From Acidobacteriota bacterium (lineage in GTDB: Bacteria > Acidobacteriota > Terriglobia > Bryobacterales > Bryobacteraceae), in the NCBI GenBank assembly GCA_016213755.1, contig JACQZT010000241.1, positions 1-35,033 of the forward strand: 35,033 nt of DNA. The letters run 5' to 3'. A program made the position numbers and the translations under genes. Below the pieces are notes generated by a model that saw nothing but the letters and a program-made list of their open reading frames with translations, made no database searches and was not told the DNA's origin. Numbering within the stretch: position 1 is the stretch's first letter; every line of letters begins with the position of its first letter. This document shows, one piece after another, positions 18,135-35,033 of this stretch.

Positions 18135-20084
18135 GTAGCGCTCCAGGCGGTCCTGGATGTAGGTCGGCTTGCGGATGCCGTGGTTTTCACCCGGATAGAC
18201 CACCAGTTGGGTCTCCACTCCGTTGGCCTTGAGGGCCTGGTACATCTGCTCGCCGCCGATGATGGGGACGTTGAAGTCGCTCTGGCCGCCCAGGAAGAGC
18301 GTCGGTGTGCGGATTTTCTCGGCCTCGAAGAACGGGTAGGAGATCTTCAGCCACAGGTCCTTGGCCTTCCAGGGGAACCCGATTTCCAGGTCGTACTGCT
18401 CGACATACTGGTCGGAGCCGTACATGGCGATCTGCATGGCCGAACCCGCGCCGCTAATAGCCGCTTTGAAGCGCCCGTCGCGGGCGATGGTGTAATCGGT
18501 GAGGATGCCGCCGTAGCTCCAGCCGCCAATGCCCAGCCGAGCCGGGTCGGCGATGCCGGCCGCCACCACGTGATCGACCCCGGCCAGCAGATCGATCACT
18601 TCCTTGTTGCCCCAGTCGGCGAAGATCGCGGTCTGGAAGGCCTCGTCGCGTCCGGCGCTGCCGCGATAATTCACCTGTAACACCGCGTAGCCATTGGCCG
18701 CGAACAGGTGCCGCTCGAACTGGAAGGCGTGGCCGTCCTGGCCGTTCGGCCCGCCGTGAATGCGCAGCAGCGTGGGCACCCTCTGGCCTTCCTGGTAGTC
18801 GGGCGGCAGGGTCAGAAGGCCGTGTACCTCGGCGCTGTCCCGAGTTTTGAAACGGACCTCGCGGGTCTCGCCCAAGCGGATCTCCTTGAGCCAATCCTGG
18901 TTGTGCTGCGTGAGCGGCCGCAGCTTGCCGTTTTCGAGCGCGAAGATTTCGCCCGGCGCTTGATCGGTGGAGGCCGCCACGGCCAGATGCCCGGCGGCCG
19001 AGTTCTGGGAGTTGATGACCGCCTTCGCCTCCAGTAAGCGCCGCAAGCCCGCGCCCACCGACACGGGATACTCGCTCATGTCGTCGGTAACCAGCACGCC
19101 GATCTCTTTGTCCGACAGGGCGATGGGCGAACCCACCGAGCGGCCCAACGAGCGCGTGAGCAGGGCCGCCTCGCCGCCCGCGGCCGGAATCCGCGCCAGG
19201 TTCATGCGGTCATAGGCCCGGAATTTGCGCTCGCGGCCGGCCAAGAAGTAAAGCGACGATCCGTCGGCCGACCAGACCGCGCGGCCGCCGCGCCCGCCCA
19301 GACTCGCGGTCCCCGAAGTCACCTGCCGCACCGCCGCGCCCGCCTTGGCCTCGGCCACGCATAACTGCCGGTCGGCGTACATGCCCTTGTCCCCCGCGCG
19401 ATTGCTTACGAAAGCGATGCGGCCCCCGTCGGGCGACCAGCAGGGGGACGACTCGTCCAGGCTCTCCGCGGTCAATAACTCGGCCTTCTTCGCCTCAATA
19501 TCGAACAGCCAGATGCGGCTGGGCTTTTTGGTCCGATACCCTTCCATGTCCTGCTTGAAGTGATAGCGGTCGATCACGATCGGCTTGGCCGTCTTCGGTT
19601 TCTCGCCCTCTTTCTTGGGCTCCTCGTCCCGCTCCGCGATCACCAGCGCCAGGCGCTTGGAATCCGGCGACCAGGCGCAGTCGGAAACGCTCCCTTTCAC
19701 CGTGGTGAGCTGCGTCGCCTCGCCTCCGGCCACCGGCAGCAGCCAGACCTGCGTCCCTTCCTCGCGGTTGGCGCGCGACGAAAGGAATGACAGCCACTTG
19801 CCGTCGGGACTCCAGCGGGGCGAAGACTCGCCCTCCTTGCTGGACGTCAGGCGCTGCCGGCCTGAGCCGTCCCATCGGACCCGCCAGACGTCGCTGTCGG
19901 ACTTCTCGGCGGCCTTGTCGATGGTGGAAAGCGTGTACGCCACCCAGGCGCCGTCGGGCGAAACCTGGGGATCGCGGACATCCAGGACGCGGTGCACGTC
20001 CTCGACTTTCAATACGCGCGGCGCGGTCGATTGGGCCGCGGCGAGCGCAACAGCGGCGAGATACAGGGGGATTCTGCGAGTCAT
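18105..20084 (-). CDS. S9-family prolyl oligopeptidase with TolB-like beta-propeller
   Basis: WSPDGKWLSFLSSR propeller repeats; GGWSYGGILTDYTIARDGRFKAAISGAG nucleophile region; GENHGI terminal His; signal peptide MTRRIPLYLAAVALAAAQS. Confidence 0.94.
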   Translation of the reverse strand: MTRRIPLYLAAVALAAAQSTAPRVLKVEDVHRVLDVRDPQVSPDGAWVAYTLSTIDKAAEKSDSDVWRVRWDGSGRQRLTSSKEGESSPRWSPDGKWLSFLSSRANREEGTQVWLLPVAGGEATQLTTVKGSVSDCAWSPDSKRLALVIAERDEEPKKEGEKPKTAKPIVIDRYHFKQDMEGYRTKKPSRIWLFDIEAKKAELLTAESLDESSPCWSPDGGRIAFVSNRAGDKGMYADRQLCVAEAKAGAAVRQVTSGTASLGGRGGRAVWSADGSSLYFLAGRERKFRAYDRMNLARIPAAGGEAALLTRSLGRSVGSPIALSDKEIGVLVTDDMSEYPVSVGAGLRRLLEAKAVINSQNSAAGHLAVAASTDQAPGEIFALENGKLRPLTQHNQDWLKEIRLGETREVRFKTRDSAEVHGLLTLPPDYQEGQRVPTLLRIHGGPNGQDGHAFQFERHLFAANGYAVLQVNYRGSAGRDEAFQTAIFADWGNKEVIDLLAGVDHVVAAGIADPARLGIGGWSYGGILTDYTIARDGRFKAAISGAGSAMQIAMYGSDQYVEQYDLEIGFPWKAKDLWLKISYPFFEAEKIRTPTLFLGGQSDFNVPIIGGEQMYQALKANGVETQLVVYPGENHGIRKPTYIQDRLERYLAWYAKYLK

Positions 20085-20173
20085 GGCGAGAAATTCAGGA
20101 TACAACACGCCGCCGCCGCATTGTTGGACACTGGAATGGTAACCAGGAACCTTCCTGTGGGAGTCCCTTTGGC

Positions 20174-23100
20174 ATGTGGATCGTTCGACTCGCCCTGCGG
20201 CGGCCGTATACCTTCGTAGCGCTCGCCTTGCTCATCGGCATTCTCGGCGTCACCGCGATCCTGTCGATGCCGGTGGACATCTTCCCCAACATCGACATCC
20301 CGGTGGTGAGCGTGGTGTGGAGTTTCGACGGCGTCACGCCGGAGGAGATGGAACGGCGCATCGTCACCGTGGCCGAGCGCGCCATGACCACCACGGTCAA
20401 CGACATCGAGCACATCGAGTCGCAATCCTATAATGGCGTGGCGGTGATCCGGGTGTTCTTCCAGCCCAACGCCAAGATCGACCTGGCCATCGCCCAGATC
20501 ACCTCCATCAACCAGACCATTCTGCGCATCATGCCGCCGGGCATGTTCCCGCCCAACGTGATCAAGTACGACGCGGCCAGCGTCCCCATCCTGCAATTGG
20601 GCCTCAGCAGCAAGACCCTCAGCGAGCAGGAACTGTTCGACTACGGACTGAACTTCATCCGCACCCAGCTCGCCACCGTGCAGGGCGCATCGGTGCCGCT
20701 GCCCTACGGCGGCCGGTCGCGCCAGATCATGGTGGACCTGGATCCCCAGGCGCTGTACGCCAAACAACTCTCGCCGGTGGACGTCTCCAACGCGCTGAAC
20801 CTGCAAAACCTGATTCTGCCCACCGGCGCCGTGCGCATCCAGGGGCGCGAATACCAGGTGCGTCTCAACTCCAGCCCGGAGGTGGTCGAGCAGCTCAACA
20901 ACCTGCCCATCCGGACCGTGAACGGCGCCACCGTGTACATCAAGGACGTGGCTTACGTCCGCGACGGCGCGGCGGTGCAGCAAAGCGTGGTGCGCACCAA
21001 CGGCCGCCGCGGCGCTCTGCTCAGCGTGATCAAGAACGGACAGGCGTCGACGCTGGACATCGTGGAAGGCGTCCGCAACGCCCTGCCCAAGATCCTGGCC
21101 GGCCTGCCCCCGGCTCTCGAAGTGCGCGAGATGTTCGACCAGTCGCTGTTCGTGCGCGCCTCGGTGGAGGGCGTGGTCAAGGAGGCGGTGATCGCCGCGC
21201 TGCTCACCGGCCTGATGATCCTGCTGTTCCTGGGAAGCTGGCGCAGCACGGTGATTGTGTGCCTGTCGATCCCGCTTTCCATCCTCAGCTCGCTGATCGT
21301 GCTCAGACTGTTGGGCGAGACCATCAACGTCATGACCCTGGGCGGGCTGGCGCTGGCGGTGGGCATCCTGGTCGACGACGCCACGGTGACCATCGAGAAC
21401 ACGCACCGCAACATGGCCATGAAGAAGCCGCTCACCCGGGCGGTGCTCGACGGCGCGATGCAGATCGCCGCGCCGACCTTCGTCTCTTCGCTTTCCATCT
21501 GCATCGTCTTCGTCCCGGTGCTGCTGCTCACCGGCGCCGCGCGCTACCTGGTCACGCCGCTGGCCATCGCGGTGGTCTTCGCCATGATGGCTTCCTACCT
21601 GCTTTCGCGCTCCCTGGTGCCCACCATGATCCACTACCTGCTCAAGCAGGAGGCGCACCTGTACCGGGAAGGCCATCACGAAGACCTGCCCGCCAGCGCC
21701 GGTTTCCTCTGGCGCGTGCATTTCCTGTTCAACCGCCGCTTCGAACAGATGCGCGGCGCCTACACCGGACTGCTGGATTGGTCGCTGGATCACCGCGCCC
21801 TGGTGCTCATCGGCTTCGGGCTGTTCACCGCGGGATCGCTGGCCATGGCGCCCATCGTGGGACGCGACTTCTTCCCCACCGTCGATTCCGGACAAATGCG
21901 GCTGCACGCGCGCGCCCCGGCCGGCACGCGCATCGAAGAGACCGAGAGCCTGTTCGGGCGCATCGAGGATGTCGTCCGCGAGGTGATCCCTGCCGGCGAA
22001 CTGGACACCATCGCCGACAACATCGGCTTGCCCCTCGGTGGAGTGAACCTGGCCTTCAGCGACAGCAGCTCGATCGGCGTCAGCGACGGCGACATTCTCA
22101 TTTCGCTCAAATCCGAGCGAGAGGGCCGCACCGCCGATTACCAGCGCCGTCTGCGGGCGCGCCTCGAACGCGACTTTCCCGAGGCCACGTTCTACTTCCA
22201 GGCGGCCAACATCACCAACCAGATTCTGAACTTCGGCCTGCCCGCGCCGATCGACGTGCAGATCCAGACCCGCAACCCCAGGCTGGGCTACGACACCGCC
22301 GTCAAGCTGGCCGCCGAGATCGCGCGCGTACCCGGCGCCGTGGACGTCCATGTGCACCAGGTGGTGGATGCCCCGGCCGTGCGCGTCAACGTCGACCGCA
22401 CCAAGGCCAACCTGATGGGATTGACCCAGCGCGACGTCTCCAGTAACCTTCTCATCTCGCTCAGCTCCAGCGGGCAGGTGGCCCCCAACCAATGGCTCAA
22501 CCCGGTTAACGGGGTGAACTACCGGGTAGCCGTGCAAACCCCCATCTACCGGTTCCAGAACCTGGACGATCTGCTGCGCACCCCCATCGCGGCGGCCGGC
22601 GGCAGCGTGAATACCAGCACTCCCGACGCCATGACGGGCCTGGCGGACCCCGCGGCCAGTCCCACCGGCGTTGGCCCGGCCAAGGCCGATCTGTCCTACG
22701 GCAACCCCGGCGCCCGGCCGGGGCGCGCGCAACTGCTCTCCAACCTGGCCACGGTCGAGCGCGACCGGGCCATCCTGATTGTCAACCACTACAACGTGCA
22801 GCCGGTCTTCGACGTATATGCCAGCGTGGACCAGCGCGACCTGGGCGGCGTCACCGCCGACGTACAGAAGATCCTGGCCCGCACGCAGCCCAAACTGCCG
22901 CCAGGAACCCTTCTGACTATGCGCGGCCAGGCGCTCACCATGCAGAATTCCTTCTTCCGGTTGGGCCTTGGCATTCTGGGCGCGATCGCTCTGGTGTACC
23001 TGCTGATGGTGATCAACTTCCAGAGCTGGCTCGACCCGTTCATCATATTGATGGCCCTGCCCGGCGCCCTGGCGGGCATCGTGTGGAGCTTGTTTCTCAC

Positions 23101-23488
23101 CCAAACCACCTTCAACGTGCCGTCCCTGATGGGGGCCATCATGTGCATCGGCGTGGCCACCGCCAACAGCATCCTGATGGTGGTCTTCGCCAACGGCGAG
23201 CAACTGGCCGGGCTCACCGCCCGGCAGGCTGCGCTGTCGGCGGGCTACACCCGCATCCGTCCCGTGATTATGACCGCCCTGGCGATGGTGATCGGCATGA
23301 TTCCGATGGCCCTGGCCCTGGGCGAAGGCGGCGAGCAGAACGCGCCGCTGGCCCGCTCGGTGATTGGCGGCCTGGCCGTGGCGACGGTCACGACGATATT
23401 CGTGGTGCCCGTTGTGTACAGCCTGCTGCGCAAACACAAACCGGTCGACTACGACCGGCTGATCTCTTTCGAGGAACACGAAGAATAG
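20174..23488 (+). CDS. RND-family efflux permease (AcrB/HAE1-like)
   Basis: MWIVRLALRRPYTFVALALLIGILGVTAILSMPVDIFPNIDIPVVSVVW; GLALAVGILVDDATVTIENTHRNM; GRDFFPTVDSGQMRLHARAPAGTRIEETE. Confidence 0.96.
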   Translation: MWIVRLALRRPYTFVALALLIGILGVTAILSMPVDIFPNIDIPVVSVVWSFDGVTPEEMERRIVTVAERAMTTTVNDIEHIESQSYNGVAVIRVFFQPNAKIDLAIAQITSINQTILRIMPPGMFPPNVIKYDAASVPILQLGLSSKTLSEQELFDYGLNFIRTQLATVQGASVPLPYGGRSRQIMVDLDPQALYAKQLSPVDVSNALNLQNLILPTGAVRIQGREYQVRLNSSPEVVEQLNNLPIRTVNGATVYIKDVAYVRDGAAVQQSVVRTNGRRGALLSVIKNGQASTLDIVEGVRNALPKILAGLPPALEVREMFDQSLFVRASVEGVVKEAVIAALLTGLMILLFLGSWRSTVIVCLSIPLSILSSLIVLRLLGETINVMTLGGLALAVGILVDDATVTIENTHRNMAMKKPLTRAVLDGAMQIAAPTFVSSLSICIVFVPVLLLTGAARYLVTPLAIAVVFAMMASYLLSRSLVPTMIHYLLKQEAHLYREGHHEDLPASAGFLWRVHFLFNRRFEQMRGAYTGLLDWSLDHRALVLIGFGLFTAGSLAMAPIVGRDFFPTVDSGQMRLHARAPAGTRIEETESLFGRIEDVVREVIPAGELDTIADNIGLPLGGVNLAFSDSSSIGVSDGDILISLKSEREGRTADYQRRLRARLERDFPEATFYFQAANITNQILNFGLPAPIDVQIQTRNPRLGYDTAVKLAAEIARVPGAVDVHVHQVVDAPAVRVNVDRTKANLMGLTQRDVSSNLLISLSSSGQVAPNQWLNPVNGVNYRVAVQTPIYRFQNLDDLLRTPIAAAGGSVNTSTPDAMTGLADPAASPTGVGPAKADLSYGNPGARPGRAQLLSNLATVERDRAILIVNHYNVQPVFDVYASVDQRDLGGVTADVQKILARTQPKLPPGTLLTMRGQALTMQNSFFRLGLGILGAIALVYLLMVINFQSWLDPFIILMALPGALAGIVWSLFLTQTTFNVPSLMGAIMCIGVATANSILMVVFANGEQLAGLTARQAALSAGYTRIRPVIMTALAMVIGMIPMALALGEGGEQNAPLARSVIGGLAVATVTTIFVVPVVYSLLRKHKPVDYDRLISFEEHEE

Positions 23489-23490
23489 TT

Positions 23491-24753
23491 ATGACAGACC
23501 GCATCCCCGATCCCCAGCGCCCGTCGGCGCGCCGAATCGGAATCATCCTGACGCTCATTGTTCTGCTCCTGATCGCCGGGTTTGCCGCCGGCTACCTGCC
23601 TCGTCACCGCCGCGAGCTGGCGGTTCGAGCCGCGGCGGACGGCGTTTCCGCGGCGGTTCCCATCGTGAACACGACCCGCTCCCGGCTCTCCGATCCGGTC
23701 AGCGCCATCGAGCTTCCCGGCTCCATTCAAGCCGTCACCGAGGCCCCGGTTCTGGCGCGCGCCGACGGCTATCTGAAGCGCCGCCTGGCGGACATCGGCG
23801 ACCGCGTCCGCGCCGGCCAGCCGCTGGCGGAAGTCGAGGCCCCGGAACTCGACCAGCAGGTCGAGCAGGCCCGCGCCGCGGTGCTGCAAGCCCGCGCCGC
23901 CGTCGAGCAATCCCGCGCCAGCCTGGAACAGGGCCGCGCGACCCAGGCGCTGGCCAAAGTCACCGCCGAGCGCTGGAGCAACCTGCTCGCGCGCGGCGCC
24001 GTCTCCCGGCAGGAACACGATATCTACCAGGCCCAATACAAAGCCCAGAGCGCCAGCGTGCGGGCGCTCGAAAAGGCCGTGCAGGCCTCGGAGAGCAACC
24101 AGGCCGCGGTCGAGGCGAACCTCAGCCGCCTGGAGCAGTTGCAGGACTACAAGACCATCCGCGCGCCGTTTGCCGGCGTCATCACGCTGCGCAACACCGA
24201 CACCGGCGCGCTGATCACGGCCGGCCAGACCCTTTTGTTCCGCATTGCGCAGACCGGCATCCTGCGCGCCTACTTAAACGTCCCCCAATCCTACGCCGAG
24301 GTGGTGCGCGCGGGCGGGCGGGCCGAGGTCTCGGTCACCGAGTTTCCCGGACGCGTGTTCCCGGCCACGCTGGCGCGCACGGCCAACGCTCTGGACGCGT
24401 CCAGCCGCACTATGCTGGCCGAGTTGCGCATCCCCAACCCGGGCGGCGTGCTGATGCCCGGCATGTACGCGCAGGTCCGCCTGACGACGGCGCGCGTCGC
24501 CCGCCCCGTGCTGGCGCCCGGCGATACGCTGGTGATCCGCGGCGGCAACCCGCAGGTGGCCGTGGTGCGCGGCGGCGTCATTCATTTCCAGAAGATCCGC
24601 ATCGGGCGCGATTTCGGACGCGACGTCGAGGTGCTGGATGGCCTGGCCGACGGAGAGGTTCTGGTGGTCAATCCCGGCGACGACGTGCGCGAAGGCGGCC
24701 GCGTCGAGGCCCGCGCGATCGCCACCGCTCCCGCCGAAGGCAAGAAGCGCTGA
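23491..24753 (+). CDS. RND efflux periplasmic adaptor (membrane fusion protein)
   Basis: N-terminal TM; PVLARADGYLKRRLADIGDRVRAGQPLAEVEAPELDQQVEQARAAVLQARAAVEQSRASLEQG; YKTIRAPFAGVITLRNTDTGALI. Confidence 0.95.
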   Translation: MTDRIPDPQRPSARRIGIILTLIVLLLIAGFAAGYLPRHRRELAVRAAADGVSAAVPIVNTTRSRLSDPVSAIELPGSIQAVTEAPVLARADGYLKRRLADIGDRVRAGQPLAEVEAPELDQQVEQARAAVLQARAAVEQSRASLEQGRATQALAKVTAERWSNLLARGAVSRQEHDIYQAQYKAQSASVRALEKAVQASESNQAAVEANLSRLEQLQDYKTIRAPFAGVITLRNTDTGALITAGQTLLFRIAQTGILRAYLNVPQSYAEVVRAGGRAEVSVTEFPGRVFPATLARTANALDASSRTMLAELRIPNPGGVLMPGMYAQVRLTTARVARPVLAPGDTLVIRGGNPQVAVVRGGVIHFQKIRIGRDFGRDVEVLDGLADGEVLVVNPGDDVREGGRVEARAIATAPAEGKKR

Positions 24754-24765
24754 CCCGGAGCAACC

Positions 24766-26541
24766 ATGCGACCCACCACTGCCCTTCTGGTCCTGCTTCC
24801 CTTCGCCCTGGCGGCTGCCGAAACCAACTCGCAGCGAGCCGAGAAGTTGATCCGCGCCGGCAAGCTGTACCTCTCCCTGGAGGACGCCTTCGCGCTGGCC
24901 ATCGAAAACAATCTGGATGTCGAGATCCAGCGTCTCAACCTGGGCGTCGCCGCCACCGAGATGCTGCGCACCCAGGCGGGCGGCGTCACGCGCGGCCTCA
25001 ACTACACGCTGGCCGAGGCGCCCGCCGGCGTGGGCGGGCCGACATCGGCGCTGCTCACCTCCAGCGCCACCCAGCGTGTGCTCCCCGGCGCCACCATCTC
25101 CACCAATCCCATGGAGACCGGCGCGCTGGGCCAGATTCAGTCGAACCTCAGCCTGCTGGGCAACGTCCCGCTCTCCAATGGCTCCAGTGTCCCCAACCTG
25201 GACCCCTTCTTTGGCGCGCGCACGCTGTTGCAGCACATCAGCACTCCGCAGACCAACGTGAACCTGGCCGGCGTGCCCAACCTGGTGACCGGCAACTGGT
25301 CGGCCGGCGCGGGCTTGCGCCAGTCGTTCGCCTCGGGCGCGCAAGTGGGACTCAGCTTCGACAACCTGCGCCAAACCACCAACTCGCTGCGCAGCGCCTA
25401 CAGCCCGTACAGCGCTTCCGCTCTTTCGCTCACTCTCACGCAACCCCTGCTGCGCGGCTTCGGCCTGCGCGTGAACCGCCGCTACCAGCGCATGGCCGGC
25501 AACGAGCGCAAGATCCTGGACCTGCTGTTCCGCCAGCAGCTCATCAACACCGTCTACGGCGTTTCGCGCCTCTATTTCGACTTCGTCGCGCTGGCCGAAG
25601 ACCTCAAGGTGAAGCAGGAAACGCTGGCCCTTTCCGAGAAACTGTTCGCCGATACCAAGGCGCACGTCGAAGAGGGCACGCTGGCCAGTGTCGAACTGGC
25701 GCGCGCCAACGCGCAGGTTTTTTCGGCGCGCCTGGACCTGGAGCGCTCGCGCGCGCTGGCCGAAGAACAGCAGGCCATCTTGAAGAACGTGCTCAATTCC
25801 CGGGTGAGCGCCGAGATCGTTCCGACCACTCCGCTCGAACCGGGCGAGCGCCCCGCGGCCAAACTCGAGGAGCTCTTCGAACTGGCGCTCCGCAATCGCG
25901 CCGACCTGGCCCAGGCCGCGCTGCAACTCGCCAACAGCGAAATCGGCCTGGAAGGCGCGCGCAATGCCGTCAAGCCGCAACTGGACCTGGTGCTCTCGGC
26001 TCAGAACAACGCCCTGGCAGGCCAGGCGAATCCGCTGGCTGCCAACGTCGATCCCACCCATCTGGGCGGTTACGGCTCGGCGCTGGCGCAGGTCTTCGGC
26101 CGCAATTTCCCCACCTATGCCGCCGGCATTCAATTCGACCTGCCGCTGCGCAATCGCCTGGCCGAGGCCGATCTGGCGCGCGACCGGATCCAGGTGCGGC
26201 AGACCGCCGTCCGCGTGCGGCAGCTTCAGAACCAGGCACGGCTGGAAGTCGAGGACGCCTACATCGCGCTGGGCCGCGCCCGCGCCGCTTACGACGCCGC
26301 GGTTCAGGCCCGCCGCTTTCAGGAAGAGTCTTTCCAAACCGAACAGGCCAAGTTCGAGGTGGGCGCCTCCACCAGCTACCTGGTGATCCAGTTCCAGAGC
26401 CAGGTAGCCCAGGCGCGCTCGGCCGAGGTCGCCGCGCGCGGCGCGGTGGTCAAAGCGCGCGCCGCGCTGGCCCGCGCCACCGGCGCCATCCTGGAAGAGA
26501 ACCACATTTCGATTGAAGCCGCCCGCCAGGGAACGATGTAG
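24766..26541 (+). CDS. TolC-family outer membrane efflux protein
   Basis: Signal peptide; LTLTQPLLRGFGLRVNRRYQRMAGNERKI; second OEP repeat AAGIQFDLPLRNRLAEADLARDRIQVRQTAVRVRQLQNQARLEVEDAY. Confidence 0.94.
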   Translation: MRPTTALLVLLPFALAAAETNSQRAEKLIRAGKLYLSLEDAFALAIENNLDVEIQRLNLGVAATEMLRTQAGGVTRGLNYTLAEAPAGVGGPTSALLTSSATQRVLPGATISTNPMETGALGQIQSNLSLLGNVPLSNGSSVPNLDPFFGARTLLQHISTPQTNVNLAGVPNLVTGNWSAGAGLRQSFASGAQVGLSFDNLRQTTNSLRSAYSPYSASALSLTLTQPLLRGFGLRVNRRYQRMAGNERKILDLLFRQQLINTVYGVSRLYFDFVALAEDLKVKQETLALSEKLFADTKAHVEEGTLASVELARANAQVFSARLDLERSRALAEEQQAILKNVLNSRVSAEIVPTTPLEPGERPAAKLEELFELALRNRADLAQAALQLANSEIGLEGARNAVKPQLDLVLSAQNNALAGQANPLAANVDPTHLGGYGSALAQVFGRNFPTYAAGIQFDLPLRNRLAEADLARDRIQVRQTAVRVRQLQNQARLEVEDAYIALGRARAAYDAAVQARRFQEESFQTEQAKFEVGASTSYLVIQFQSQVAQARSAEVAARGAVVKARAALARATGAILEENHISIEAARQGTM

Positions 26542-29190: not shown

Positions 29191-29463
29191 TCAGTAGCCT
29201 TCCGCACCATAACCCAGGATCTGGTCTTCTTCCTCGCGACTCATCACCCGCCCCAATTCGCCAGGCGGCATCAGGGGCCACACATTCTGCTCCAGGTACT
29301 CCCTCAGGCTCTTGCGGCCACCGGGCTTGCCGCTCCGGGCCTGGAGCCGGGCCCGGCGTTCCACCAGCGCCCGCCGGATAGCTTCCGTCTTGGTCTCATG
29401 CGCCAGGCTGGCCACTTCACCGGCCAGCTTCTCGACGTCGGCATTCTTGATGTTCAGCGCCAT
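29191..29463 (-). CDS. vapB: VapB-like antitoxin (Rv0623/PSK_trans_fac-type)
   Basis: MALNIKNADVEKLAGEVASLAHETKTEAIRRALVERRARL typical N-terminus; C-terminal GELGRVMSREEEDQILGYGAEGY. Confidence 0.85.
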   Translation of the reverse strand: MALNIKNADVEKLAGEVASLAHETKTEAIRRALVERRARLQARSGKPGGRKSLREYLEQNVWPLMPPGELGRVMSREEEDQILGYGAEGY

Positions 29464-30529: not shown

Positions 30530-30604
30530 CTTGCGACTGGGCAGGGGTGGCATAATAGACGGTTGCACTATATTGCTCCCCAAACCGGCGCGCGGTCCGA
30601 GCGG

Positions 30605-33529
30605 ATGCGGTATTTCGGCTTTGCCGGCGCCGTCGGAATCCTGCTTCTGCTCAACCTGGCCGGGATCTGGAAGACCGTCTTCGGCCTCGACACCGCAGCC
30701 ATCCTGACCGTCGTCGCCGGCTACCGCATCTTCTACAACGCCGTCTCGCAGCTTCTCGAAAAGAAGATCTCGGCGGACCTGGCCATCTGCATCGCCGTCA
30801 TCGCGGCGCTGGCCGTGGGCGAGTACCTGGCGGCGGCCGAAGCGATGTTCATCATGCTGGTGGGCGAGGGGCTGGAAGGCTACGCCGCCGGCCGCACCGA
30901 GGCCGCCATCCACCGCTTCGTGGAGCAATTGCCGCGCCGCACCCGGCGGGTTCGCGACGGCGCCGAGGAAGAGGTGGACGCCTCGGCCCTGGAGGTGGAC
31001 GACGAGATCCTGGTCCGCTCGGGCGAACGCATCGCCGCCGACGGCGTGGTGGCGCAGGGCGTCTCCTCGGTCGACGAAAGCGCCATCACCGGCGAGTCGC
31101 TGCCGCGCGACAAGCAGCCCGGCGACGAAGTATTCTCGGGCACCCTGAACGGAAACAGTCTGCTGCGCATTCGCGTCACCCGGGCGGGCGAAGATACCAC
31201 CCTGGCGCGCGTCATCCGCCTGGTCGAGGACGCCAGACAAAAGCGCGCGCCGGTCGAGCGCCTGGCCGACCGCTGGGCGCGCTACTTCCTGCCCGCCCTC
31301 CTGCTGGCCGGCGGGCTCACCTACTATTTCACCAACGACTGGCTGCGCACCGTCTCCGTGCTCATCGTGGCCTGCCCCTGCGCCCTGATCCTGGCCACGC
31401 CCACGGCCATGGTGGCCGCCATCGGCGGCCTGGCGCGGCGCGGCATCCTGGTGCGCGGCGGAACCGTGTTGCAGGAAGCCGCGCGGGTCAACACCGTTGT
31501 GTTCGACAAGACCGGAACGGTGACCGAGGGGCGCTTTGAAGTCGTCAAGATCCTGCTCGATCAGGCGGCGTCGGAAGAAGAATTGCTGCGCCTGGCCGCC
31601 ACCGCCGAGAGCGGCTCGGATCACACCCTGGCGCTGGTGATCGTCGAAGAGGCCGCGCGCCGCGGCATCTCACCTCCCGCGACGGAAGACGCGCGCGTCA
31701 TCCCCGGCCGGGGCGCCGAATGCACGCTGGCCGGCCGCACCATCCGCGCCGGCAACGCGCAGTTCCTGGCCGATCATGGCATCCGTGGCGCCGAGCCGGC
31801 GCTCGAAGAAGCCGACCGGCTGGGCGCCACCACCGTGCTGGTGGCCGCGGGCGACCGCCTGGCGGGCGCTATTCTGCTGCGCGACCGCCTGCGCGCCGGC
31901 GCCCGGCAGGCCGTTCTCGCCCTCCGGAAAGACCTCGAGATCCCCTGGCTGGTGATGCTCACCGGTGACCGCCGCCAGGCTGCGGAAGGCATCGCGCGCG
32001 AGACCGGCATCCCCAACGTGGAAGCCGAGCTGCTGCCGGAGCAGAAGGCCGACCGCGTCCGGCAACTCGCCTCGCAGGGCCGCGTGGTGGCCATGGCCGG
32101 CGACGGCATCAACGACGCCCCCGCGCTGGCTGCCGCCAGCGTGGGCGTGGCGGTGCACGGCGCCAGCGACATCACCGCCGAAGCGGCGGGCGTGGTCTAC
32201 ATGGGCCACTCGCTCGAGAAGCTCCCCAAGCTGTTCGAGGTGAGCCGGCGCGCGGTGCGCACGGCCTGGCAGAACATTATTCTCTTCGCCGGCGTGGTGA
32301 ACCTGCTCGCGGTGGGTGCGGCGGCCTACGGCCAGATCGGTCCGTTGGGCGCGGCGTTCACCCATCAACTCGCTTCCCTGTTCGTGATGCTGAATTCGCT
32401 GCGGCTGCTGCGGGTGGAACGGCCGCGGCGGCGCCGGCAGTGGCTCCACCGCGCCCATCATCTCGCCGCCGCGATCGATCCGAAGGACTGGTTCAACTGG
32501 GTAGTGGCTCGGCGGCGCGAACTCGCCCGGCCCGCGCTGGGCGCGGCGGTCCTGCTGGCCGCACTGAACGGCTTCTACATTCTGAACCCGAATGAAGTGG
32601 GCGTCATCGAACGCTTCGGCCGCCGCGTGCTGCCTTCCCGCGAGCCGGGATTGCACTACAAGCTGCCCTGGCCGATCGAGAAACTGACTCGTGTCGAGGC
32701 GCGCCGCGTGCGCACGATCGAAGTGGGCTTCCGTTCGAGCGGCGCCGTTCAGGGCGCCGAGCCGGCCGCTTACGAGTGGAACGTGCAGCACCGAGCGGGG
32801 CGCTTCCAGCGCAAGCCGGAAGAGTCGCTGATGCTCTCCGGCGACCAGAACATGATCGAGGTCAACGCCACGGTGCATTACCGATTGACTCGGCCCGACG
32901 AGTTTCTCTTCCGGCAACTGGACGGTGAGACCACGGTGCGCGCGGCGGTGGAGTCGGTGTTGCAGTCCATCGCCTCCACCACGCCGCTGGACGACATCTT
33001 CACCGTCGGGCGGCGGGCCATCGAGGCGCGCGCCAAACGGGAGATCCAGCAGAGGCTGGAACGCTATGCCGCAGGCGTCGAGGTGCTGGACGTGAGGCTG
33101 CTGGACGTGCACCCGTCTTTGGAGGTGGTGGACGCCTTTCGCGAGGTCTCCGCGGCTTACGAAGAGAAGAGCCGCCTGGTCAACGAAGCCGAGGGCTACC
33201 GCAACGAGCAGGTGGCGCTGGCGCGCGGCAACGCGCAGGCCCGCCTGGCCACGGCCGCCGGCTACTCGGCGGGAAAGAAGAACCGCGCGGCGGGCGACGC
33301 CGACCGGTTCCGCCAGGACGAAGCGGCCTTCCGCGCGGCGCCTGGCCCCACCGAAATCAGGCTGTACCTGGAGACCATGGAGCTGGTGCTTCCGGGCCGC
33401 AATAAAATCATTGTCGACGGCGGCCGCGGCCGCCGCCACCTGGTGCTGTTGGACGACGGAGTGGAGATCGGCCCGGCCATCGCGCCGGCGGTGGCCGCGC
33501 CCCGCGCCGCGCCCCTGGAGGAGCGTTAG
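30605..33529 (+). CDS. P1B-type heavy-metal ATPase fused to an HflK-like SPFH/prohibitin domain
   Basis: ITGESLP, ACPCALILATP (CPC), VFDKTGTVTEG, MAGDGINDAPALAAASVGVA, then an extra TM (ALGAAVLLAALNGFYIL) and NPNEVGVIERFGRRVLPSREPGLHYKLPWPIEKLTRVEARRVRTIEVGF ... PTEIRLYLETMELVLPGRNKIIVDGG (HflK hallmarks) in one uninterrupted frame. Confidence 0.92.
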   Translation: MRYFGFAGAVGILLLLNLAGIWKTVFGLDTAAILTVVAGYRIFYNAVSQLLEKKISADLAICIAVIAALAVGEYLAAAEAMFIMLVGEGLEGYAAGRTEAAIHRFVEQLPRRTRRVRDGAEEEVDASALEVDDEILVRSGERIAADGVVAQGVSSVDESAITGESLPRDKQPGDEVFSGTLNGNSLLRIRVTRAGEDTTLARVIRLVEDARQKRAPVERLADRWARYFLPALLLAGGLTYYFTNDWLRTVSVLIVACPCALILATPTAMVAAIGGLARRGILVRGGTVLQEAARVNTVVFDKTGTVTEGRFEVVKILLDQAASEEELLRLAATAESGSDHTLALVIVEEAARRGISPPATEDARVIPGRGAECTLAGRTIRAGNAQFLADHGIRGAEPALEEADRLGATTVLVAAGDRLAGAILLRDRLRAGARQAVLALRKDLEIPWLVMLTGDRRQAAEGIARETGIPNVEAELLPEQKADRVRQLASQGRVVAMAGDGINDAPALAAASVGVAVHGASDITAEAAGVVYMGHSLEKLPKLFEVSRRAVRTAWQNIILFAGVVNLLAVGAAAYGQIGPLGAAFTHQLASLFVMLNSLRLLRVERPRRRRQWLHRAHHLAAAIDPKDWFNWVVARRRELARPALGAAVLLAALNGFYILNPNEVGVIERFGRRVLPSREPGLHYKLPWPIEKLTRVEARRVRTIEVGFRSSGAVQGAEPAAYEWNVQHRAGRFQRKPEESLMLSGDQNMIEVNATVHYRLTRPDEFLFRQLDGETTVRAAVESVLQSIASTTPLDDIFTVGRRAIEARAKREIQQRLERYAAGVEVLDVRLLDVHPSLEVVDAFREVSAAYEEKSRLVNEAEGYRNEQVALARGNAQARLATAAGYSAGKKNRAAGDADRFRQDEAAFRAAPGPTEIRLYLETMELVLPGRNKIIVDGGRGRRHLVLLDDGVEIGPAIAPAVAAPRAAPLEER

Positions 33530-33534
33530 CCGAG

Positions 33535-34425
33535 ATGCAGTTAGAAAAGTACAGGCGATACTTCCCCGCCCTGGCCGCCCTGGGCCTGCTGGTCTTGCTG
33601 TGGCTGACCTTCTTCACGGTGCGCGAAACCGAGTTCGTGCTGGTGACCCAGTTCGGCCGGCCGCTGTACACGGTAACCGAGGCGGGCTTGCACGCCAAAT
33701 GGTTTTTCCAATCCGGCACTTTCTTCGACCGCCGTCTGCGCATCTACAATCCGCGCCCGTCGGAGTTCCTGAGTCGCGACAAGAAAAACCTGGTGATCGA
33801 GAGCTACGTCGCCTGGCGCATCCGCGATCCCAAGCGCTTTGTCGAAACCGTGGGCGACCCGGTGGCGGCCGAGATGCGCCTGCACGACATCGTCTGGTCG
33901 GGCCTCGCCGCCGCGCTGGGCACGGTGGACTTTGAGTCCATCGTCACTACCAACCGCGAAGCGGCGCAGGCCGCGCGCCTTCAAGACAGCCTCTCGACGT
34001 CCGCCGACCGCGCCGCGCTGGAGCAATACGGCATACAGGTCGTGGACGTGCGCATCAAGCGCCTGAACCTGCCCGAACAAAACAAGCAGAGCGTGTTCGC
34101 GCGCATGCGCGCCGAGCGCGAGCGCATCGCGCGCCAGTACCGCGCCGAGGGCGAGGAGCAGGCCCTGAGCATCCGCGCCGGCGCCGACCGCCAGCGCGAG
34201 GAGATCCTCTCGGCGGCCTACAAGGAAGCCGAGAAGACCAAGGGCGAGGGCGACGCCGAATCGACCCGCGTCTACAGCCAGGCCTACTCGCGCAACCCGC
34301 GGTTCTACAAACTGCTGCGCACGCTGGAGTCGTACAAGAAGATCCTGGACGACAAGACCACGGCCATTCTCAGCTCGGATTCCGAGCTGCTCAAGATCCT
34401 CATGCGGGGCGAGACGGCGCAATGA
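33535..34425 (+). CDS. hflC: HflC-like SPFH protein
   Basis: N-terminal TM; FFTVRETEFVLVTQFGRPLYTVTEAGLHAKWFFQ; VVDVRIKRLNLPEQNKQSVFARMRAERERIARQYRAEGEEQALSIRAGADRQREEILSAAYKEAEKTKGEGDAESTRVYSQAYSRNPRFYKLLRTLESYKKIL. Confidence 0.94.
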   Translation: MQLEKYRRYFPALAALGLLVLLWLTFFTVRETEFVLVTQFGRPLYTVTEAGLHAKWFFQSGTFFDRRLRIYNPRPSEFLSRDKKNLVIESYVAWRIRDPKRFVETVGDPVAAEMRLHDIVWSGLAAALGTVDFESIVTTNREAAQAARLQDSLSTSADRAALEQYGIQVVDVRIKRLNLPEQNKQSVFARMRAERERIARQYRAEGEEQALSIRAGADRQREEILSAAYKEAEKTKGEGDAESTRVYSQAYSRNPRFYKLLRTLESYKKILDDKTTAILSSDSELLKILMRGETAQ

Positions 34426-35033
34426 ACCGGCGCAAGATCTTGGGGCTTTTCGCCGTGCTGTGGCTGGCCTCCGGCATCTACATCGTGCCGGCCGACCAGC
34501 AGGCGGTGGAAACGCGCCTGGGCCGCGTGGTGGCGCCGCGGGTTCTGCCCGGCATTCACCTTTCGATGCCCTGGCCCATCGACCGCGTCTACAAGCTCAA
34601 GGTGCGGCAGCTTCAGCGGCTGGTGGTGGGCGGCGAGGCGGCCGACGGCGTGCTGGGCCGGGCGCAGCCGGTGACCTCGCAATTTCTCACCGGCGATCAG
34701 AACATCCTCCACCTGCGCATCGCGGTGCAGTACTGGGTGGGCGTTCCGGCCGACTATCTCTTCCGGGCCGCAGATGTCTCTCGCACCGTGGGCGCGGCGG
34801 TGGAATCCGCGCTGGCCGGGCGCATCTCGTCGCGCACTGTGGACGCCGTGCTTACCACCGAGAAGGCCGCCATTCAGGAGGAGGTCCGCGCGGCGGCGCA
34901 GAAGACCCTCAACGACTATCGCGCCGGCGTGATCCTGTCCACCGTGAACCTGGAGACGGTCGCGCCGCCGCCGGAGGCCGCCGATGCTTTCCGCGACGTG
35001 GCCAGCGCGCGCGCCGCTTCGCTGCGCATCGTC
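34422..35033 (+). CDS. Second HflK-like SPFH protein (truncated by window end)
   Basis: ATGA overlap with hflC; MNRRKILGLFAVLWLASGIYIVPADQQAVETRLGRVVAPRVLPGIHLSMPWPIDRVYKLKVRQLQ ... LTGDQNILHLRIAVQYWVGVPADYLFRAADV; open to the last base. Confidence 0.88.
   Translation, partial: MNRRKILGLFAVLWLASGIYIVPADQQAVETRLGRVVAPRVLPGIHLSMPWPIDRVYKLKVRQLQRLVVGGEAADGVLGRAQPVTSQFLTGDQNILHLRIAVQYWVGVPADYLFRAADVSRTVGAAVESALAGRISSRTVDAVLTTEKAAIQEEVRAAAQKTLNDYRAGVILSTVNLETVAPPPEAADAFRDVASARAASLRIV

Follow-up and report, generated by a model that had tools for sequence, protein, structure and literature searches.

Exporters of three mutually unrelated folds are found fused to the first HflK of HflK–HflC–HflK (K-C-K) operons, which probably encode a specialised HflK/C-type SPFH assembly with a built-in metal exporter that would expel ions at or under its dome, the number of pumps perhaps being limited by the second, pump-free HflK. 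The window from which the operon is described here is an entire contig (C99, 35033 bases). It belongs to a draft genome of 5.8 Mb that, at the fusion locus, has a Bryobacterales MAG as its nearest named relative. In the preliminary description of this DNA, the fusion stop (TAG) was placed at 33527-33529, the hflC ATG 5 nt further on at 33535, and an ATGA overlap between hflC and the next gene at 34422-34425. All these coordinates are correct and, together with the Pfam and NCBIfam domains, they uphold its account of two HflK-like subunits and one HflC encoded by tightly coupled genes. The two HflKs are referred to as K1 (exporter-bearing) and K2 (plain), and the features of the locus are as follows.

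30563..33529, + strand: gene 1 (K1), fusion of a P1B-type metal ATPase with HflK; start at TTG 30563 or ATG 30605, the longest open frame running from GTG 30515.
30605..32440, + strand: P1B-ATPase part of K1 (TIGR01525, 549 bits; homologue alignment; AlphaFold2; Foldseek).
32441..32528, + strand: positively charged linker of K1, predicted to be cytoplasmic (13 K/R and 4 D/E over 46 aa).
32531..33526, + strand: HflK part of K1 (TIGR01933, 193.6 bits; AlphaFold2; alignment to E. coli HflK 7vhp).
33535..34425, + strand: gene 2, HflC (TIGR01932, 215.3 bits, cut-off 134.4).
34422..35033, + strand: gene 3 (K2), plain HflK with one TM helix; 5' 204 codons, the rest being cut by the contig end.

The E1-E2_ATPase, Hydrolase, and Band_7 domains are all found in gene 1 (Pfam, NCBIfam), and the HflK part of its product comprises a single TM helix (aa 643-661, counted from the ATG start), an SPFH domain, and a long coiled coil. 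This part exceeds the hflK equivalog cut-off of TIGR01933 (159.4 bits), as gene 2 does that of TIGR01932 for HflC, while the K2 fragment reaches 112.6 bits for TIGR01933, a score that reflects only the present part of an incomplete gene. The translation of gene 1 may begin at TTG 30563 (LHYIAP...) instead of ATG 30605, because a near-identical LHYIAP stretch occurs in the nearest homologue, L040, and because the starts of other homologues, MHQH... or VHVV..., lie at a similar distance. Elsewhere in the window, an RND-type tripartite efflux set (RND permease, periplasmic adaptor, and TolC-type outer-membrane protein) lies upstream of the fusion at 19787-26541 (+); the best matches of its adaptor are RND_mfp and CzcB/NccB-like, and its permease scores below the curated cut-offs. 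A small gene for an Rv0623-like transcription factor (PSK_trans_fac, antitoxin-like) is located at 29191-29463 (-), near a DUF72 gene.

Gene 3 is shortened by the contig end and not by mutation. In relatives, the second HflK is untruncated, with about 300-350 aa (302-348 aa in the nearest ones), and that of L040 reaches 216.5 bits for TIGR01933, above the hflK cut-off. It is a true HflK-type SPFH protein and stands beside the fusion in practically all loci examined, so that neither of the objections foreseen in the preliminary description, a truncated gene 3 or an unrelated SPFH clade with no co-occurrence, is borne out. An HflK-like fragment at the edge of another contig (C214) was considered as the missing end of K2 and rejected, as it reads as the start of a stomatin-like SPFH protein. 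Gene 3 is present in 30 of 61 genomes (the window's own and 60 relatives), and in most of these an HflK frame as long as the fusion lies about 2 kb upstream of it. When 84,980 species genomes were scanned for gene 3, 80 loci were retained. Among the 79 loci examined for the layout of the ATPase class, 73 have the complete trio in the K1-HflC-K2 order, which is beyond chance, and most of the other loci end at contig ends. The gaps in ATPase-class loci are mostly a few bases or ATGA overlaps, and genes 2 and 3 share the ATGA overlap in many of them. Moreover, the 3' neighbour of K2 in 70 of 79 ATPase-class loci is a fourth gene, often joined by ATGA (e.g., L095:10903-11403), which encodes a conserved protein of about 160 aa with one TM segment and a predicted NTF2-like fold (AlphaFold2/Foldseek). 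This gene is not claimed as part of the window locus: it is absent after K2 in L040, and the homologue in the window's genome lies elsewhere (G000:C381:1233-1703, - strand), adjoining a hemL-like gene.

The same chassis carries other exporters. Among the fetched loci, 118 K-C-K operons were counted, a figure in which some loci overlap or come from one genome twice, and in 114 of them a recognisable metal exporter is fused to the first HflK. These exporters comprise 79 P1B-ATPases, 17 CDF domains (PF01545; e.g., L114, L115, and L119), and 18 SO_0444/ArsP-type Cu/Zn permeases (PF03773, NF033936; e.g., L120-L128), and all three folds join HflK on the same side. No recognised exporter was found on HflK in the 32 ordinary HflK-HflC pairs. 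The four K-C-K operons lacking a recognised exporter include a broken ATPase frame (L098), a contig-cut locus (L214), and two with unassigned N-termini (L186 #2 and L212). In the K-C-K operon at L186:14764-18425, the first HflK begins with six predicted TM helices, no exporter signature was found in the N-terminal membrane part of L186 #2, and a separate P1B-ATPase gene directly follows the operons of L186 #2 and L212.

By gene spacing, K-C-K operons were read from tables of phylum draws, part of them being fetched. There were 21 among 297 genomes in one draw, taken as Acidobacteriota because it includes G065, which holds a locus with the title Acidobacteria gp18, and 7 among 198 genomes in that of Desulfobacterota. 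Over both draws, the first frame is long in all except G265 (460 aa), where the contig cuts it. One Desulfobacterota genome (G144) holds three K-C-K operons of different kinds, further operons come from Methylomirabilota genomes, and a CDF fusion operon is located on the conjugative plasmid NZ_CP018172.1 of the alphaproteobacterium Aquibium oceanicum. The evidence comes mostly from MAGs, and some bins are mislabelled or have common contigs. For G266, a MAG with Cytophagales in its title, 118 genomes of the same phylum were sampled, and the pattern was confined to G266 itself, whose operon contig is also present in an acidobacterial bin. One stretch of operon contig occurs in both MAGs of L046/L048 (Acidobacteria UWPOB_ACIDO1 and Cytophagales UWPOB_CYTO1), and this sharing suggests cross-binning.

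The fused exporters look functional, as judged by their catalytic and metal-site motifs. The ATPase of K1 has 8 expected TM helices, scores above the TIGR01525 cut-off (346 bits), and keeps the TGE, CPC, DKTGT, and GDGxND motifs. DKTG, TGE, and CPC are found in 66/66 full-length ATPase fusions and GDGxND in 65/66, and an Asn in TM7 and a His in TM8 are invariant in an alignment of 48 ATPase-fusion homologues. With the full catalytic core and CPC in TM6, K1 is similar to the P1B-type ATPases CopA (3rfu), ZntA (4umv), and 7qbz but differs from them in its C-terminal HflK and in having no N-terminal metal-binding domain. Its TM8 (H..[ST]..V..N.LRLL) resembles that of 7qbz, a Cd-named ATPase, and this coexistence of CPC in TM6 with a 7qbz-like TM8 gives no clear match to a described P1B metal specificity among the subgroups considered, P1B-1 (Cu), P1B-2 (Zn/Cd), and P1B-4. 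The AlphaFold2 model of K1 (mean pLDDT 79.6) contains the ATPase core, the HflK TM helix, the SPFH domain, and a long coiled coil, and its Foldseek matches are P1B ATPases.

In the other two classes, the CDF and SO_0444 membrane domains (PF01545; NF033936; PMC3219624) are those of the known families, here fused to HflK in K-C-K operons. The CDF fusions match PF01545 with values down to 1.5e-27 and carry HxxxD of TM5 in 12/13 cases and the strict TM2 form in 9/13; by eye, the CDF domains of L115 and L152 show HxxxD with variant prefixes. In the CDF fusions looked at, the HflK TM helix follows TM6 after about 27-61 residues, which leaves scant space for the C-terminal cytoplasmic domain typical of CDF transporters. 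The CSC motif is present in 16/16 permease fusions, and His-rich loops with up to 13 His per 30 residues occur in the SO_0444-type domain (L120-L126, L128, and L187). The NF033936 score is 319.4 bits for L120 (cut-off 300) and 157.8 bits for L127, a partial protein. In Shewanella, mutant fitness has tied SO_0444 to the tolerance of Cu and Zn (PMC3219624). In examples of each exporter class, a basic linker precedes the HflK TM helix and, by the positive-inside rule, this linker would be cytoplasmic and the SPFH domain periplasmic, as in E. coli HflK.

Phylogeny places both HflKs of these operons apart from the canonical ones. In a tree of 120 HflK domains, the canonical HflKs of hflKC pairs form their own clade (support 97), with K1 and K2 outside, and the K1s of the ATPase class form another (98). 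A constraint placing all K1s of all exporter classes in one clade withstood the AU test (p 0.815), with a likelihood above that of the free search. The K2s lie on one side of a branch in the best tree, with a support of only 30, and the operon HflCs are split from canonical HflCs by a branch with a support of 100. A phylogeny of both HflK domains had been set beforehand as a check, and the trees of K1 and K2 proved to be mirrored, their distances being correlated across operons (Mantel r = 0.94, n = 49). K1 and K2 are separate lineages in every exporter class, old and specialised, and the simplest history would be a single old K1-C-K2 chassis with exchange of its exporter. Several origins may be the alternative, deep branches being weak and some rows long. 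The preliminary description had proposed a hetero-oligomer in which HflC is combined with a pump-bearing and a plain HflK. This is the natural reading of the co-occurrence and the mirrored phylogeny, although the plain subunit is to be seen as an old lineage in its own right rather than as a recent duplicate.

In the assembly proposed here, the C-terminus of the K1 pump would lie in the cytoplasm and lead through the short basic linker and the HflK TM helix to the periplasmic SPFH domain and coiled coil, while HflC and pump-free K2 would complete a ring or dome with several pumps at its membrane base. The pump is exchangeable (P1B-ATPase, CDF, or SO_0444/ArsP-type permease) and the K1-HflC-K2 chassis conserved. 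Metal ions would be pumped out of the cytoplasm at the SPFH dome or beneath it, which would confine export to a patch of membrane and periplasm, and the confined ions could be kept from re-entry or passed on. As far as composition and predicted topology are concerned, a three-subunit assembly is well supported by the sequences. We infer that the three proteins would co-assemble, that metal would be discharged under the dome, and that K2 would set the number of pumps. In E. coli, FtsH is surrounded by 24 alternating HflK and HflC subunits arranged as a cage or an open nautilus (PMC12048511). It may be sterically impossible for each HflK position of a complete dome to hold a pump of at least eight helices, and K2 could therefore be needed for space, restricting the count of bulky pumps in the ring. 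Furthermore, a K1-C-K2 repeat may be favoured over strict K-C alternation because, judging by the translation coupling, the three proteins may be made in roughly equal amounts. A pump density set by the subunit ratio, as the preliminary description had it, is matched equally well by a purely structural K2 or by such a repeat. A more far-reaching version, in which these operons would encode modular metal-export compartments, i.e., a K1-HflC-K2 cage with unrelated exporters plugged in that release ions into a protein-enclosed periplasmic space, can be put forward only tentatively. The idea of a sealed lumen is weakened by the finding that native HflK/C can be open instead of closed (PMC12048511).

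It might alternatively be supposed that the SPFH ring acts only as a scaffold that clusters or stabilises exporters in a microdomain or shields them from FtsH, metal being freely released and the dome irrelevant. SPFH proteins have been proposed as organisers of membrane domains (PMC12005517, PMC13086221), and the sequence evidence of fusion and co-conservation fits this explanation equally well. However, neither a second specialised HflK lineage nor a restriction of the fusion to exporters would obviously be needed for a scaffold, and the identified partners all belong to metal-exporter families, which makes this reading rather unlikely. Less probable still is a link to FtsH quality control, in which the pump would serve as a metal-dependent switch or anchor and would, via the SPFH ring, either recruit FtsH or hold it back, so that the turnover of membrane proteins would follow metal stress. 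The HflK residue Arg191 is said to contact FtsH (PMC12048511). In favour of such a link, ATPase-class K1, full-length K2, and HflC exceed the HflK/HflC equivalog cut-offs, and FtsH is present in the carriers checked. Moreover, the genome of the window lacks any further full HflK, its HflK-type genes over or near the cut-off being found only in the fusion operon, and relatives without the K-C-K operon give no HflK match. Nevertheless, each of the six carrier genomes checked has a single ftsH gene, located outside the operon, and many genomes possess a canonical hflK besides the K-C-K operon. A switch, moreover, would not need three different exporters, and the pump motifs are retained. Finally, a loose fusion, in which ATPase and HflK were joined by chance within an operon and work independently, would account for the family features retained by each half but is hardly credible for a K1 lineage that is old, occurs in dozens of species, and bears exporters of three unrelated families, in each case at the first HflK of K-C-K operons.

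The preferred reading, an HflK/C-type assembly with a built-in exporter, differs from each of the known systems with which it was compared. As in the E. coli HflK-HflC-FtsH complex (7vhp, 7wi3; PMC12048511), K1 and K2 contain an HflK-type SPFH domain and coiled coil, HflC is encoded by gene 2, and a single TM helix is oriented N-in. However, there are two specialised HflKs, one of them exporter-bearing, no ftsH in the operon, and subunits outside the canonical clades. Instead of the one hflK and one hflC of the canonical HflKC modulator of FtsH, the locus presents K-C-K with an exporter on the first K. The PaFlo5-PaFlo6-PaFlo7 operon of Pseudomonas aeruginosa (PMC13086221) likewise has three SPFH genes and is patchy across bacterial classes; compared by description only, it differs in that a transporter link is absent from the text of PMC13086221. 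SPFH-NfeD operons (SPFH1, 2, 5; PMC2636767) also combine an SPFH gene with a membrane partner, whereas the partner in K-C-K operons is the fused exporter, and the neighbours scanned included no NfeD. No description of HflK/SPFH–metal exporter fusions was found in the open-access literature searched, which suggests that exporters built into an SPFH membrane cage are a so far undescribed arrangement.

The purpose of HflK/C-type SPFH cages beyond FtsH modulation is an open question, for which the fused exporters offer a testable biochemical function, with metal export and tolerance as its readout. They suggest that SPFH cages may serve as compartments or organisers for transporters, and the K-C-K operons are a candidate new class of metal-handling operons in Acidobacteriota, Desulfobacterota, Methylomirabilota, Armatimonadota, and on an alphaproteobacterial conjugative plasmid. 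The flanks in the window and in most Bryobacterales loci show no obvious metal genes. CusB- and OEP-type genes, ZIP, and an ABC-3 permease are found by other K-C-K operons, and the CDF operon of NZ_CP018172.1 is surrounded by a copper island with PCu(A)C, SCO, CopC, CopD, and P-type ATPase genes. Genes for PpiC-type peptidyl-prolyl isomerases also lie beside operons of the CDF class, upstream of K1 in L114 and L213 and downstream of K2 in L152 (19134-20831).
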